Shown here: positions 6,430 through 13,652 of the stretch, piece after piece
How the letters are laid out: each line of letters opens with the position of its first letter
Position numbering within the stretch: the first letter of the stretch is position 1
Assembly (NCBI GenBank): GCA_028285145.1
Contig: JANQQC010000065.1
Coordinates: forward strand, 1-64,000
DNA: 64,000 nucleotides
Direction: 5' to 3'
DNA from: Hyphomonadaceae bacterium
GTDB lineage: Bacteria; Pseudomonadota; Alphaproteobacteria; Caulobacterales; Hyphomonadaceae
Notes under the pieces: generated by a model
Told to the model about the DNA's origin: nothing
Seen by the model: only the letters and a program-made list of their open reading frames with translations
The model's database searches: none
Made by a program: the position numbers and the translations under genes

Positions 6430-7839
6430 ATGGCTGATTTTGACCTGATCGTTATCGGTTCGGGCCCCGGCGGCTACGTTGCGGCGATCCGCGCGAGCCA
6501 ACTCGGCATGAAGACGGCAGTTGTTGAGAAGGAGTCGCTTGGCGGCGTCTGTCTCAACTGGGGCTGCATCCCCACCAAGGCGCTATTGCGGTCGGCTGAG
6601 GTGCTGCATCTCGCGAAGACCGCAGAAGCCTATGGACTGAAGAAGCTGGAACCGGAAGTTGATCTCCCAGCCGTGGTGAAGCGCTCGCGCGATGTCGCCA
6701 AGCAACTTTCAGGTGGCGTGAAGCACCTGATGAAGAAGAACAAGATCACCGTGATCGAGGGCACGGCACGGCTGGAGAAAGCGACGCCAGCCCCGAAAGT
6801 GATCGTCGAAGACGCGTCTGGAAAGCACACGACCCACATAGCCAAGCACGTGATCCTCGCCACGGGCGCGCGGGCGCGGGCGATCCCGCAGGCGGGACTT
6901 GAGCCGGACGGCGATCTGATCTGGACGTACCGCGAGGCGATGGTGCCGAAGGAGCTGCCGAAGCGGCTGCTCGTGATCGGCTCCGGCGCGATCGGGATCG
7001 AGTTTGCAAGCTTCTACAATGAGCTCGGCTCGGACGTGACCGTTGTTGAAATGGTCGACCGGATTCTGCCTGTGGAAGATGCAGATATCTCAGACATGGC
7101 CCGCAAGCAGTTTGAGAAGCAGGGCATCGCGATTCATACCAAGGCGCAGGTCAAAGGCCTGAAAAAGGGCAAGGGCAAAGTCACCGCCGATATTGAGGCG
7201 GGCGGGAAGACGGAGAAAGGCGAGTTCGACAAGGTCATTCTCGCTGTTGGCATTGTTGGCAATGTTGAGGATATGGGCCTCGACAAGCTCGGTGTGAAAG
7301 TTGAGAAGACGCACGTCGTTGTGGACGGGTTCGGCCGGACGGGCGTGCAGGGCCTCTATGCGATCGGCGATCTGACAGGGCCACCATGGCTGGCGCACAA
7401 GGCATCTCATGAAGGCGTAATCTGCGTGGAGGGCATTGCCGGATCGAACAAGACGCATCCATTCGATGCGTCCAACGTGCCGGGCTGCACCTACTCACAT
7501 CCCCAGGTGGCGAGCGTCGGCCTGACCGAAGCGAAGGCGAAGGAAGAGGGCCGGAAGGTGAAGGTCGGCAAGTTCCCATTCATTGGGAACGGCAAGGCTA
7601 TCGCGCTGGGCGCGGCGGAGGGCATGGTGAAGACGATCTTCGATGCGGAGACGGGCGAACTGCTCGGCGCGCACATGATCGGCGCGGAGGTGACAGAGCT
7701 CATCCAGGGCTACGTCATTGCCCGGGAAGGGGAGCTGACAGAAGCCGAGTTGATGGAAACCATCTTCCCGCATCCGACGCTATCCGAGATGATGCATGAG
7801 AGCGTCCTCGACGCCTATGGTCGCGCACTGCATATGTAG
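6430..7839 (+). CDS. lpdA: Dihydrolipoyl dehydrogenase (E3)
   Basis: Flavoprotein that reoxidises dihydrolipoamide with NAD+. The 469 residues show the N-terminal FAD-binding GSGPGGYVAAIRA and the redox-active disulfide GGVCLNWGCIPTKALL at about residues 38-53. The NAD-binding GSGAIGIEFASFY and the C-terminal catalytic His-Glu in IFPHPTLSEMMHE follow. GGAGG precedes the ATG. It is the last gene of the pyruvate dehydrogenase set. Because it encodes a shared E3, it may also serve 2-oxoglutarate dehydrogenase if no other lpd gene exists. Confidence 0.98.
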   Translation: MADFDLIVIGSGPGGYVAAIRASQLGMKTAVVEKESLGGVCLNWGCIPTKALLRSAEVLHLAKTAEAYGLKKLEPEVDLPAVVKRSRDVAKQLSGGVKHLMKKNKITVIEGTARLEKATPAPKVIVEDASGKHTTHIAKHVILATGARARAIPQAGLEPDGDLIWTYREAMVPKELPKRLLVIGSGAIGIEFASFYNELGSDVTVVEMVDRILPVEDADISDMARKQFEKQGIAIHTKAQVKGLKKGKGKVTADIEAGGKTEKGEFDKVILAVGIVGNVEDMGLDKLGVKVEKTHVVVDGFGRTGVQGLYAIGDLTGPPWLAHKASHEGVICVEGIAGSNKTHPFDASNVPGCTYSHPQVASVGLTEAKAKEEGRKVKVGKFPFIGNGKAIALGAAEGMVKTIFDAETGELLGAHMIGAEVTELIQGYVIAREGELTEAELMETIFPHPTLSEMMHESVLDAYGRALHM

Positions 7840-7868
7840 TTCATTGAAAAAGTGAAGGAAAAATTCTC

Positions 7869-7904
7869 TAGACAGTCTGTCGGCATAAACATAACATGTT
7901 ATGT
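7869..7904 (+). promoter_or_regulatory. Promoter with palindromic operator upstream of the MarR-GNAT gene
   Basis: A perfect 16-base palindrome ACATAACATGTTATGT (7889-7904) lies 15 bases before the start codon. It overlaps a possible -10 (TAACAT, 7892-7897) placed 17 bases after a possible -35 (TAGACA, 7869-7874). MarR-family dimers bind palindromes of this size, so I infer autoregulation by occlusion of the -10. The palindrome is read directly; the promoter boxes are weaker guesses. Confidence 0.6.
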
Positions 7905-7919
7905 ATAAAGGAGATCGCG

Positions 7920-8873
7920 ATGCCGGACATACTTGAAGACCTTGGCTATCTCGCACTCGGCAGCCGGTTGAAGCGATTGGCGGAGCGGTTGCAGTCCGAC
8001 GCAGCGGCGCTTCACTCGGCACACGGCTATCCGACCCAGCCGAGCCAGTTCCCGCTCATCGCGGCGCTGGATCGATACGGCGATCTGTCAGTAAACGATG
8101 CCGTAGAGGCGCTGGGTGTCAGCCAGCCAGCGGTGACACGTGCGATGTCGAGTCTGATCGAAATGGGCCTGGTTGAAACCCGTCAGTCGGAAGAGGACAG
8201 GCGCAGCAAAACCCTGTCACTTAGTCAAAACGGAAAGGCTCTTGTGACCGACATGAAGGCGCAGTTCTGGCCGGCGGTGGAGTCGGGAGCGCATGATCTT
8301 TGCGAAGGTCTCGATGCCGACTTTGTCGAGCAGATCAGCGGTCTTGAGAGAGCCATGGAGAAGAGATCGCTGCTGCAACGTGTCTCCGTGCCGGAGCAAG
8401 GCGATCTTTCAGTTGTTCTGTACTCAGCCGATCTCGCGCAGGACTTCTATGACATCACAGCGGCATGGGTCGAAACCATGTTCAGCCTGGAGCAGGAAGA
8501 CATCGACATTATCTCCAATCCCCAGGAGAGAGTGATCGAGCCTGGCGGTGAGATTGTTTTCGTTCATTCGAAGGAAGCCGGGATCATTGGTACCTGCGCT
8601 TTGATGAAAATAGAGGAGGGGTGTTTCGAGCTGACGAAAATGGGCGTCCTTGAAGCCGCCCGGGGCCGGAAGGCGGGTGATTTCCTAATGCAGGCCATCC
8701 TCAACCGCGCGAAGGACATGGACATCGACACGCTGTTCCTGCTGACGAACAAGAAGTGCGAGGCCGCGATCCATCTCTATGAAAAGTTCGGCTTTGAGCA
8801 TGACGAGGATATCATGCGCCGTTTTGGTGCGCGTTATGAGCGGTGCGATGTGGCGATGCTCTATCGGGGTTAA
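7920..8873 (+). CDS. MarR-family regulator fused to a GNAT acetyltransferase domain
   Basis: A 317-residue two-domain protein. The N-terminal winged helix-turn-helix (about 25-130) includes YPTQPSQFPLIAALDRYGDL, the recognition-helix region GVSQPAVTRAMSSLIEMGLV, and the wing RQSEEDRRSKTLSLS. The C-terminal half (about 155-315) resembles a GNAT N-acetyltransferase, with GVLEAARGRKAGDFLMQAI as the acetyl-CoA loop and AIHLYEKFGFEHDE near the end. ATG at 7920 is chosen over an in-frame ATG at 7896 because AAAGGAG lies 6 bases before it, and the earlier one would begin inside the operator palindrome. The acetylated substrate is unknown. Its stop overlaps the convergent ligase gene by TTAA. Confidence 0.88.
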   Translation: MPDILEDLGYLALGSRLKRLAERLQSDAAALHSAHGYPTQPSQFPLIAALDRYGDLSVNDAVEALGVSQPAVTRAMSSLIEMGLVETRQSEEDRRSKTLSLSQNGKALVTDMKAQFWPAVESGAHDLCEGLDADFVEQISGLERAMEKRSLLQRVSVPEQGDLSVVLYSADLAQDFYDITAAWVETMFSLEQEDIDIISNPQERVIEPGGEIVFVHSKEAGIIGTCALMKIEEGCFELTKMGVLEAARGRKAGDFLMQAILNRAKDMDIDTLFLLTNKKCEAAIHLYEKFGFEHDEDIMRRFGARYERCDVAMLYRG

Positions 8874-9856
8874 TCCGATGCGTCAGCCAAGGTTCCGATC
8901 TGAAAGGGTTCGAGCGGCTGACCGCGCCAGTTGGCTTTCGCCATAGCGACACGCGCAATGGGATCGTCCGGAATGCTGTCGAGGGCGTGGATGGGCTCCA
9001 GAAGCGGCACAAGGCCTCTGAGATTGGCAGTCTGGATGGCAATGCCTGGTCTCGCATTCAACTCCAGCAGGGTTGGCCCTTTGACTTCATCGATCACGAT
9101 GTCCACACCGACATAACCGAGGCCGATATGGGCACCCAGCCGTGCGGAGAGTTCCAGGATCTCATCCCAACCCGGCACTTCAAATCCGGTTACTTCCGTT
9201 TCGAAATCAGGATGGTGTTCAACCAGCTCATTGTGCTGCACACCGCGTGTGGTCACACCCGTAGCCAGATCGATCCCGGCACCGATGCCACCCATATGAA
9301 GGTTGGCCTTGCCGTCGGACTCTGCGGTGGGCAGCCGAAGCATCGCCATGACCGGGACACCGCGAAAGACGATGACACGGACGTCCGGAACGCCGCCAAA
9401 GGCAAGATCTTTGAAGATGGAGTGAGGCTTCAGCCGCTCTTCGATGAGCACGCTGTCGGAACTCCCGCCCATTGAGTACATGCCGGACAGGAGATTGTTC
9501 AGCTGGAAGCGGACATCCTGCCAGGGGATAATGGCACCGCTCATCTTGCGAAGCCCGCCCTTTGCAACGCCGCCAATCACCATAATGCCACCGCCGCCGG
9601 AGCCCTTGGCCGGCTTCGCAACAAAGCTCTGACGCTTATTTGCAATATCGACGAATTGTTCCCACTGGCCTGTAAACTCGATGACCCCATACAGCTCGGG
9701 TACGGTTACGCCCGCTTCAATGGCGAGTTCCTTGGTGGTGATCTTGTCGTCCACAAGCGGATAAAGGGCTCGCTTGTTGTACTCTGCAATGAAATCGAGG
9801 TTGCGCGCGTTCATTCCGAGAACGCCAGCGCGGCCGAGGGATGTGATGCCGCGCAT
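8870..9856 (-). CDS. ATP-grasp alpha-L-glutamate ligase-like protein
   Basis: RimK-related ATP-grasp enzyme expected to form an amide/peptide bond between an amino acid (typically glutamate) and an unknown acceptor. The 328 residues show the ATP-binding lysine and glycine-rich loop FVAKPAKGSGGGGIMVIGG and the Mg-ligand region GPTLLELNARPGIAIQ near residue 275. The N-terminal ILGMNARNLDFI-like start is typical of the subgroup. ATG at 9856 is preferred over GTG at 9862 because AAGG lies 5 bases before the ATG; the GTG is nearly contiguous with the previous gene's stop. It is the last gene of a three-gene minus-strand cluster with a transglutaminase-like membrane protein and an exported protease. 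The acceptor is not deducible from sequence. Confidence 0.9.
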   Translation of the reverse strand: MRGITSLGRAGVLGMNARNLDFIAEYNKRALYPLVDDKITTKELAIEAGVTVPELYGVIEFTGQWEQFVDIANKRQSFVAKPAKGSGGGGIMVIGGVAKGGLRKMSGAIIPWQDVRFQLNNLLSGMYSMGGSSDSVLIEERLKPHSIFKDLAFGGVPDVRVIVFRGVPVMAMLRLPTAESDGKANLHMGGIGAGIDLATGVTTRGVQHNELVEHHPDFETEVTGFEVPGWDEILELSARLGAHIGLGYVGVDIVIDEVKGPTLLELNARPGIAIQTANLRGLVPLLEPIHALDSIPDDPIARVAMAKANWRGQPLEPFQIGTLADASD

Positions 9857-9863
9857 CTTCACC

Positions 9864-11429
9864 TTAGCCGGCCGTCGCCGCGAGTTTCCGGAAGCGGCGA
9901 TACTCGGTCAGCTTGTAGCCGTTGTAGCGGCCCAGCATGATCACCACAGCCAACACGATGAGTAGCAGCTCTGGATAAACGAACACCATCTCCTCGATGA
10001 AGTCGTTGGTGATGATGAAGTATCCAATAGCGGCACCGACGAGCGATCCGCCAGCCTTCTGCAGGGCATCCTTCGCGCCGGCTTCTTCCCAGACGGTGGA
10101 CATCCGTTCGATGGTCATCGTCAGGATGACGATTGGGAAGAGTGAGATTGAGAGGCCCAGCTGGAAGTTGAAGGCTTGGCCGAACAGGGCGATGGCCATC
10201 ATCAAGAAGGTCACCACAATCAGGATCGCGGCGAGCCTTGGAACGAGGAGCAGCTTCAACTGCGCAAAATAGATGCGCAGGACGAGGCCGGCTCCAACAA
10301 TGAAGGTGAACAGGATCATACCGGTGAGAAGCTGTGTCTCGCGAAAGGCCAAGGCGATGAGGACCGGCATGAACGTCCCGAAGGCCGGGATCCCGACAAC
10401 CTGTTTGAGGAGCACGATCAGGAGTGCAGCGATGGGGATTAGAAACAAAACGCGGAAGACAAGCTGCATGTCGATGGGTAGGTTGAGCAAAGACACAGCG
10501 GCAAGGAACGGTGCGGCCTCCGCCCCCCGGCTCATGGCGCGAGAGAGCGCCGTTTCGAGGTTCCTCTGAATGGCGAAGGACACGGCAAGCCGGCGAAAGC
10601 CCTCGCCATCGACGAGGGGCGCACCGCCATAGGTGATCGGTACGATCCGAGACTTGTCCAGAGGTTCGGATGTTATGGGGTCAGCAGGCACCCAGGCCCC
10701 GTCAATCCAAAACTCGATCCAGCGTTCCAAAGGAACTGAACGCGTTTCCGTTGTCAGGCGAATACCGGAGACCACGCGGGAAGGTGTACCAGCGGCATTG
10801 AGCAGGAACACCATTCGATCTGCGGCCTGATTCAGGCCCGGCGGGCCACCATCGATCAGACTTTCGACCCGCTCGTCCGTCGTATCCGAGGAAAGCTTGG
10901 CGAGTTGGCTGATAAAGCTGTCCTCATCGGCGGAGCGCTCAAGTGCATCTGTGAGAATTGAGTCGAGCGCCAGAAGAAGCGGCGTGGCGTTTTCCTGTAT
11001 CGCGCGGCGGCGGTCGCGGCGGCGGTAGTCGGAAATCGCCTCCGGCACCTCGCCATTGCTTCCGGCGCGGCGCGACAGATCGAGTTGATAGAGCGACGCA
11101 CGGTAAAACAGGACGGCTCGGCCGGTCTGTGACCGGCGCTGAAACACCGCGTGACGCAACTCTCCATCGCCTTCCGTCTCAATGCCGAAACCAGATGCAA
11201 TAAAGTCTTCGTCGACAATCCGCGCGCCGCTGGAGGAGGAGGGCAGGGCGAGTCTCAGAGAAACCGGCCGATCCTGGCCCTCGAAACTCACTTTGGCCTC
11301 GATGGTCCAACTGTCCGCATCCCGGTCTGGCGTCAGCGGAAAATCAAGCGCAACGATTTTGAACAGGAAAATGCCGAGGCCGATCGCTACGAGACCACCC
11401 ACCAGAAACAGTAACTGAAAGCGTTGCAT
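9864..11429 (-). CDS. Inactive transglutaminase fused to seven-helix membrane domain
   Basis: A 521-residue inner-membrane protein. An N-terminal membrane anchor (about 5-27) leads into a large periplasmic part (about 30-315). That part has a transglutaminase-like core (NAAGTPSRVVSGIRL, WIEFWIDGAWVPADP). A C-terminal bundle of about seven helices follows (about 325-510). The position where active transglutaminases carry the catalytic Cys reads NQAADRMVFLL, with no Cys, so the domain is probably a binding module. AGGAGG lies about 10 bases before the ATG. The downstream ATP-grasp gene begins within 10 bases, showing tight coupling. Co-occurrence of these three families is established, but the function is not settled. 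Confidence 0.85.
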   Translation of the reverse strand: MQRFQLLFLVGGLVAIGLGIFLFKIVALDFPLTPDRDADSWTIEAKVSFEGQDRPVSLRLALPSSSSGARIVDEDFIASGFGIETEGDGELRHAVFQRRSQTGRAVLFYRASLYQLDLSRRAGSNGEVPEAISDYRRRDRRRAIQENATPLLLALDSILTDALERSADEDSFISQLAKLSSDTTDERVESLIDGGPPGLNQAADRMVFLLNAAGTPSRVVSGIRLTTETRSVPLERWIEFWIDGAWVPADPITSEPLDKSRIVPITYGGAPLVDGEGFRRLAVSFAIQRNLETALSRAMSRGAEAAPFLAAVSLLNLPIDMQLVFRVLFLIPIAALLIVLLKQVVGIPAFGTFMPVLIALAFRETQLLTGMILFTFIVGAGLVLRIYFAQLKLLLVPRLAAILIVVTFLMMAIALFGQAFNFQLGLSISLFPIVILTMTIERMSTVWEEAGAKDALQKAGGSLVGAAIGYFIITNDFIEEMVFVYPELLLIVLAVVIMLGRYNGYKLTEYRRFRKLAATAG

Positions 11430-11468
11430 GGTGGTCCCGACCTCCTGAAGCGCGCGAGCCGCGCCTCG

Positions 11469-11981
11469 TCACGTGCAGCGTGACTTGTCGGTATATATCT
11501 CAGACGGATCGACCAAGATCTGTCCCGCCTCGAGCATGTTCCGTCCGACGAGGACTTCATAGTTGAAATGTCCGCGGTCGGCCAGTGTTACCTCACCGCT
11601 GAGGAGGTTGCCGCCGATACAAAAATCCATCGTAACAACAGGGCGATAGAGGACGCCGCCACTTTTCTTCTTGATGGCGGCCCAGCGGACGAGCTCGGAT
11701 TCGATGGTCCGCTCGTCGCCTTTTTCATTGTTGATTCTGAAGACGATGACGTGATCGCCTTCGCCATCGCTACTCGAGCGGCGGTCGGGTGCTGATAGGA
11801 TTTCCGCGTGGATGGAAGATGTCTTCGCACCAGTGTCTAGCTTGGCGTCCATGCGTAGGTCAGCGCCTTGTACGCGAACGAATTCAAGCCATCCGAGGGT
11901 GACTTTTCCCTGGGCGACGGCCTGGCCGCCAAACAGCGCAACAGCAAGAGCGGATACGCATAATGTGATGAGTCGGGTCAT
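11469..11981 (-). CDS. Exported retropepsin-like protease of the RimK-associated (DUF785) family
   Basis: A 170-residue protein with a signal peptide (about 1-23, LCVSALAVALFGGQAVAQG). The single retropepsin-like domain has the active-site motif AKLDTGAKTSSIHAEIL at about residues 46-62 and GRNMLEAGQILVDPSE at the C-terminus. The family is often labelled 'ATP-dependent zinc protease', but the visible motif is that of an aspartic protease (DTGA). AGGAG precedes the ATG. It leads the cluster with the transglutaminase-like protein and the ATP-grasp ligase. I infer that a periplasmic peptide or peptidoglycan-linked product is made or trimmed by the cluster. Confidence 0.85.
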   Translation of the reverse strand: MTRLITLCVSALAVALFGGQAVAQGKVTLGWLEFVRVQGADLRMDAKLDTGAKTSSIHAEILSAPDRRSSSDGEGDHVIVFRINNEKGDERTIESELVRWAAIKKKSGGVLYRPVVTMDFCIGGNLLSGEVTLADRGHFNYEVLVGRNMLEAGQILVDPSEIYTDKSRCT

Positions 11982-12071: not shown

Positions 12072-13652
12072 TCAAGCCTCGGTTAGTTTGACAGCAAGCT
12101 TCTGGATCGCTCCATAGTCCAGTTTCCCAGTGCCAAGCACGGGGATTTCGTTCACGTGGATAATCTTTCGCGGAACAGATAGTTCCGAGACGCCGTGGTT
12201 TTGCGCCCAGGCCAGTATGTCACTGCGATTGCAGTCCTCGGCATCGCTCAAAAGCACAATCTGTTCGCCCTTGCGGGCATCCGGCAGCGTGGCGGCCGCA
12301 TGCATGTTGTCCGGCCAGATCGCGCTCGCGCAGTTCTCGACCACTGCAAGGGAGACCATCTCACCGCCAATTTTTGCGAAGCGCTTCACGCGGCCTTTGA
12401 TCCGGATGCAATTGTCCTCGTCGATCGCAACGATGTCGCCGGTGTCGTGCCAGCCATCGATTGGTCGCTCCAGAACCCCTGGATTGGTCGCGTGCAGATA
12501 GCCCATCATGATGTTGGGACCGCGAACCCTTAGGCGCCCGCCCTCAGCGATTCCTTCGACTGGGACGAGTTCATATTCCATGTCCGGCATGAGGACGCCG
12601 ACGGTGCCTGGCTTGTTGAGATCCATCGAGTTTGCAGCAACCACGGGAGAGGCTTCCGTCGCACCGTAACCCTCAAGGATTTCGATATTGAACTTCTTGC
12701 GAACCAACTGGCGCGTTTCGTCCCGGACCCGCTCGGCCCCGCAAACGGCGAGCCGGATGGAACTCATATCACCCTGATCGCCGGCACGAGCGTACTGGGA
12801 AATGAAGGTGTCTGTTGCGAGCAGAATGGTCGATTGCGTCGTGCGTATGCGCTTTGCGATCTCTCTGGGTTGAAGCGGTGTTGGATGGAAAACCGCCTTG
12901 ATCCCCGCGACAAGCGGGAGGATGGCCCCGACTGTCAGGCCAAAACAGTGAAACGTCGGAAGCGGATTGAAGACAGAGTCGGTTTCATCGCTCAGACCGA
13001 TATGAGCACGGACCTGCTCAACATTGGCAATGACGTTCTGATGGGAAAGCACGACACCTTTCGGGTCGCCCTCGGTGCCTGACGTGAAGAGTATGACGCC
13101 CGGCGACGCATGGCTCGCGCCTCGGCGAAACAACCACGGAGTGACAGGCCCGAGCGCGCCGGCCGCCTTGTCCAGCAGTCCAAGATTCTCGCGCACATCC
13201 TCAAGATAGATGATCTCAGCATCCTGCTCGAGCTCTGCGATGAGGGGCTCAAGATTGCCGAGTTCAACAAACCTATGGGCGGTGACGATGCGCTTCACTT
13301 CGCTCGACTTCATCGCTGAGCGCAGATTCCGTGAGCCCGCCGTGAAGTTCAGCATGGCCGGGATTCGGCCATATGCCTGCAACGCATAGAAAGCGATGAC
13401 GGCACCCGCGCCTGTCGGCAGCAAGACGCCAACGGCCTCTTTCGACGATGTGTGCTTCTTCAGAGCGGACCCAAGCGCGAACGCTGCGCGTGTCACTTCA
13501 GTGTAGCTCAATTCGCGCTCATCGCCGTCAACGATTGCGATGCGTGCACCTCCAAACTCCCGCTTGGCGCGCATCAGCGCGCTGAAGAGGTCCGTTTTTG
13601 TGCGGGCCGGACGCCACGGGAGTGGCTGGGGCAGGGCGGCAGTCGCGGTCAT
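12072..13652 (-). CDS. AMP-forming acyl-CoA/acyl-ACP synthetase
   Basis: ANL-superfamily enzyme that activates a fatty acid via an acyl-adenylate. The 526 residues show the P-loop-like motif [18 protein letters not shown] (about 188-205), [14 protein letters not shown] (A5), the hinge motif [13 protein letters not shown], and the C-terminal lysine region [14 protein letters not shown]. The overall pattern resembles the synthetase half of Aas (acyl-ACP synthetase/acyl-GPE acyltransferase) without its acyltransferase half. The substrate is unproven. It is divergent from lipA, with 138 bases between the two starts holding both promoters. Confidence 0.85.

Follow-up and report, generated by a model that had tools for sequence, protein, structure and literature searches.

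Three genes lie with almost no spacing on the minus strand between positions 8870 and 11981 of the window, by which we mean the whole 64,000-nucleotide stretch that was analysed, and are transcribed in the order rloA, rloB, rloC (Table 1). A preliminary description had placed a compact three-gene cluster here, and it is borne out by open reading frames at exactly these positions and by family matches far beyond chance. The gap between rloA and rloB measures 39 bases and that between rloB and rloC a single base, the latter counted from the listed GTG at 9862; the ATG at 9856, which lies behind an AAGG and would give a protein of 328 residues, seems the likelier start of rloC. Upstream of rloA by 90 bases, a minus-strand gene (12072-13652) encodes a free-standing acyl-ACP-ligase-like protein that matches only the C-terminal half of a bifunctional acyltransferase/ligase; it adjoins rlo in four close relatives (L057, L058, L060, L062) and not elsewhere. 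On the other side, a plus-strand gene (7896-8873) for a MarR-type DNA-binding domain fused to a GNAT acetyltransferase converges on rloC and overlaps its 3' end by 4 bases, and no match to it was found near rlo in the other loci compared.

Table 1. Genes, domains and motifs of the rlo locus, with positions in the window.
Feature	Position	Strand	Residues	Description or basis
rloA	11469..11981	minus	170 aa	exported retropepsin-like aspartic peptidase; PF05618
RloA leader	11981-11913	minus	about 1-23	Sec-type, read by eye
RloA DTGA motif	11837-11826	minus	49-52	visible in sequence
rloB	9864..11429	minus	521 aa	membrane protein; PF14400, PF01841, PF14402
RloB first helix			2-27	
RloB dead transglutaminase-like periplasmic part	11318-10548	minus	about 38-294	AF2 model and fold match
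RloB membrane domain	10475-9870	minus	about 319-520	PF14402, AF2 model
rloC	8870..9862	minus	330 aa from GTG	cytosolic ATP-grasp ligase; TIGR02291, PF14397

The assignment of RloA rests on its matches to PF05618 (7.6e-26), to the RloA1 and RloA3 models (3e-24 to 4e-24) and to PDB chain 9g58_A (1.5e-15). Its leader, judged by eye, is MTRLITLCVSALAVALFGGQAVA. When mapped through 9g58_A, the window protein keeps the catalytic Asp together with K47, R99, R113 and R136, four basic residues that correspond to the symmetric polyglutamate contacts, the equivalents of K46, D48, R92, R114 and R137 all being present.

RloB matches PF14402 (1.1e-87) and PF14400 (5.8e-34), and contains no cysteine in its whole length; the catalytic Cys/His/Asp positions are occupied by L/E/D in the alignment. 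In the AF2 model (mean pLDDT 89) the periplasmic part adopts a transglutaminase-like cysteine-protease fold, with 3isr_C as the best match (Z 15.2, rmsd 4.2 over 225 residues), and the membrane domain shows helix breaks at GTFMP and SLFP. A full catalytic triad was seen in only 3 of 63 aligned RloB proteins, all three in a separate group, and the invariant residues are concentrated in the membrane domain. A PDB fold search with this domain returned no convincing transporter; RND pumps were matched at a middling level (Z about 6), which is evidence neither way. In Shewanella vesiculosa, vesicles are overproduced when a gene annotated as an inactive transglutaminase with seven fused helices is disrupted (PMC12096838).

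RloC exceeds the curated cut-off of TIGR02291 (381 bits against 314; 3.1e-114) and matches PF14397 (5.9e-78). The ATP-grasp residues K83, E141, D254, E267 and N269 are invariant in 108 RloC proteins, so that selection acts on it as an enzyme. Against the RimK-family model TIGR00768 it reaches 38 bits, below the cut-off of 143, so that glutamate should be regarded as a putative substrate. The family matches, the lack of cysteine, the modelled fold and the leader as read by eye agree with the earlier reading of a cytosolic ligase, a Cys-less periplasmic transglutaminase fold and an exported DTGA protease.

These families were named RloA, RloB and RloC in a 2025 study of Pseudomonas aeruginosa (PMC12239564), where RloA is a retropepsin-like peptidase that cleaves polyglutamate runs of at least 8 residues in vitro. 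The species has three exported RloA proteins, unlinked paralogues among them; without all three it cannot grow in salt-free medium, and its shape, biofilm and antibiotic sensitivity are altered, while deletion of rloB or rloC rescues the salt-free growth defect fully and the other defects in part (PMC12239564). The P. aeruginosa rloABC genes (NF052262, NF052267, TIGR02291) share with the window the same three families in the same order and on the same strand, an RloA with an apparent leader, DTGA and four symmetric polyglutamate contacts, the dead transglutaminase and membrane domains of RloB, and an intact ATP-grasp ligase. By its sequence, the locus is therefore an alphaproteobacterial rlo operon, an added member of an already described system; the rows nearest to it in the tree place the genome in this class. 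The view of the cluster as a poorly described envelope system has been overtaken by that experimental work (PMC12239564); the additions made here are comparative and concern the RloA contact residues, the gene content of the genome and the variants found among relatives.

The window also differs from P. aeruginosa in several respects. RloA scores 85 bits against the 280-bit cut-off of NF052262 and RloB 311 bits against the 900-bit cut-off of NF052267, so we file both under the broad rlo family and not with the narrow Pseudomonas-type orthologues. Only one exported RloA was found in the genome, as opposed to three, and elsewhere in it RimB is fused to RimK in one 500-aa frame (L185, minus strand, G000:C26:8002-9309), an arrangement also present in relatives (L194, L197). 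RimB-RimK, a ribosome-modification pair, resembles rlo in that a related peptidase and an ATP-grasp ligase are encoded together, and in vitro the peptidases of the two systems are both able to cleave polyglutamate (PMC12239564). Unlike rlo, it is confined to the cytosol and lacks a partner in the membrane, whereas the window RloA carries an apparent leader and RloC falls under the RimK-family cut-off.

The distribution of rlo is patchy, with loci in 5 of 142 genomes from the class of the window, in 58 of 349 from its phylum and in 14 of 37 from its family, and further ones in the Nitrospirota, Thermodesulfobacteriota, Myxococcota and Bdellovibrionota. That the three families co-occur, as the preliminary description held, is supported by the neighbourhood survey: in 105 of 120 loci rloA, rloB and rloC directly follow one another (93 under a strict rule and 12 with an over-called RloC start), although 80 of the loci were picked by similarity to RloB and the counts therefore describe a biased sample. 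The others comprise three loci cut by a contig end, ten with rloB-rloC but no adjacent rloA, one rloB-rloC fusion and one unresolved case. No conserved fourth partner gene was found beside the trio across taxa.

The operon also occurs in structural variants. Two loci from the window's own family, L066 (7162-9427) and L067 (7257-9495), represent a minimal form in which RloA, a bare membrane domain of 250 residues and RloC are encoded with short overlaps. Both are nested inside the alphaproteobacterial RloB branch (support 95/83), which indicates that the transglutaminase domain was lost secondarily; judging from these gene structures, it appears dispensable for whatever RloA, the membrane domain and RloC do. 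A third locus of this family, L068 (G500; 6483-8930 and 8917-10809), encodes RloB and RloC in a single 815-aa frame followed by a TPR protein, and the fusion speaks for a direct link between the membrane domain and the ligase.

The RloB of L068 and those of L072-L075, from f156 genomes, carry an apparently complete Cys-His-Asp triad (SCNGKGR, HQW[VL]E, VPFD), and in all of these loci a TPR gene stands in place of the adjacent rloA. In L072, L073, L074 and L075 the triad-bearing RloB and RloC are followed by the TPR protein and then by a protein of about 392 residues with a weak match to SlipAM, an outer-membrane barrel; these loci seem to form a separate branch of the rlo system. A PF05618 gene was absent from the whole genome in four of the five f156 genomes checked, the fifth (G228) having one elsewhere, and G500 likewise shows a partial PF05618 match elsewhere. 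The pattern, drawn from a small and clustered sample, hints that hydrolysis may fall either to RloA or to a catalytic transglutaminase domain. Two further loci, L070 (6900-8958, G219) and L069 (G263), pair an ATP-grasp protein with a PF14402 protein that lacks the transglutaminase domain and is very divergent, perhaps a separate subfamily given its very long branch in the tree.

We suggest, as a somewhat probable reading, that RloC makes a glutamate chain, that the membrane domain of RloB moves or presents it, and that RloA cuts it. Cytosolic RloC would join glutamates into a chain, either free or bound to a carrier, which would be moved or presented to the periplasm by the membrane domain of RloB in direct partnership with the ligase; exported RloA would then cut the chain and so limit its accumulation. 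Without RloA the product would build up and the cell would fail in dilute medium, and the published toxicity of RloA loss, which is suppressed when RloB or RloC is lost as well, agrees with a product in need of trimming. Evidence from the present loci consists of the three genes themselves, the active sites, which are intact in RloA and RloC, the loss of the RloB triad and the conserved coupling; from these and the published work we infer synthesis of polyglutamate by RloC, its export by RloB, and the validity of both for this organism. The absence of RloA beside rloBC in 10 of the 120 loci counts against this model, as do the low RimK-family score of RloC and the want of a convincing transporter match for the membrane domain, and the literature searched contains no isolated rlo product for any organism.

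The topology given in the preliminary description, with synthesis inside, a membrane step and trimming in the periplasm, is compatible with the genetics and biochemistry of P. aeruginosa, the gene order, the overlaps and the fusion; its mention of recognition by the membrane protein needs correcting on one point. The dead domain is unlikely to be an essential recognition element, since it was lost in L066 and L067, two members of the window's family that keep RloA, the membrane domain and RloC, and it is best explained as an accessory related to the forms that retain the triad.

The main rival holds that the glutamates are added to a fixed envelope target and form no free polymer: RloC would glutamylate a specific protein, a lipid-linked precursor or the peptidoglycan stem, RloB would flip or hold the product, and RloA would remove the modification, as a periplasmic counterpart of RimK/RimB. 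This is possible, and the resemblance of RloA to RimB, its ability to cut protein-borne glutamate tails in vitro, and the altered cell shape and sensitivity to wall-targeting antibiotics after its loss in P. aeruginosa (PMC12239564) all accord with it. However, a proteome search in the same study found no genome-encoded polyglutamate substrate (PMC12239564), and no conserved target gene accompanies the operon. It is improbable that RloB acts mainly as a sensor or regulator, its dead transglutaminase domain controlling RloC in response to a bound periplasmic peptide, with no transport involved. The periplasmic part does retain the fold while having lost the catalytic residues, as in other binding-only versions, yet the minimal operons nested among the alphaproteobacterial RloB dispense with it and keep everything else, and the invariant residues cluster in the membrane domain. 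That the genes are mere neighbours with unrelated roles is hardly credible: the unlinked RloA paralogues of P. aeruginosa and the ten loci with rloB-rloC but no adjacent rloA could be read in this way, but the conservation of gene order in several phyla, the overlaps, the RloB-RloC fusion and above all the published epistasis, in which the rloA phenotype is rescued by deletion of rloB or rloC, come close to refuting it and uphold the functional linkage proposed at the outset.

A functional parallel to rlo is provided by the poly-gamma-glutamate synthase PgsBCA/CapBCA, which likewise combines a ligase, a small multi-helix membrane protein and an outer hydrolase; the membrane subunit resembles RloB in modelled helix order and GxxxP motifs, whereas its ligase is Mur-like and RloC belongs to the ATP-grasp enzymes. 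Homology of the RloB membrane domain with PgsC/CapC had been spotted by eye from GxxxP and its spacing, and profile comparison did not support it: hhalign gave probabilities of 0.2-4% against shallow, broadened and classic-only CapC sets, while the controls worked (tandem against classic CapC, 97% and 81%). A home-made window score placed RloB against CapC above 15 transmembrane decoy families for windows of at least 30. The result of a gapped decoy test was borderline, in that 2 of 90 single transmembrane decoys scored as high as CapC against RloB, and in column shuffles the RloB-CapC score was only 2.6 standard deviations out. Compared without superposition, RloB and a weak AF2 model of CapC (mean pLDDT 70) show a similar order of helices at a constant offset. 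A PDB fold search with CapC gave nothing above Z 6.3, which is evidence neither way, and there was no match to PF14102 in the genome of the window nor to CapC in the viral contigs scanned. The B. subtilis sequence used, which we take to be that of PgsC, was checked by its PF14102 match only. The likeness is thus suggestive, and confined to the layout of helices and motifs. In seven loci (L091-L095, L183, L214) open frames of about 1085 residues contain two tandem CapC domains followed by a large extra region and adjoin a sensor-kinase-like frame, an unusual architecture for CapC.

In a more far-reaching version of the preferred model, which we consider doubtful, RloB-RloC would both synthesise and export polyglutamate, its membrane domain being distantly related in structure to PgsC/CapC but working with an ATP-grasp ligase where PgsC/CapC has one of the Mur type. 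It would form a Gram-negative periplasmic system that tunes osmotic or charge balance, in which RloA and the triad-bearing transglutaminase would be alternative depolymerases.

In P. aeruginosa, rlo bears on survival at low salt, antibiotic sensitivity and biofilm formation. As the genome studied here has no second exported RloA, deletion of a single rloA should show the phenotype, where P. aeruginosa requires three. The natural variants, comprising operons free of the transglutaminase domain, the RloB-RloC fusion and triad-bearing RloB proteins that mostly occur without RloA, restrict the set of parts that can be essential. If the kinship with PgsC/CapC were true, rlo would constitute a second type of polyglutamate synthase, a Gram-negative one.
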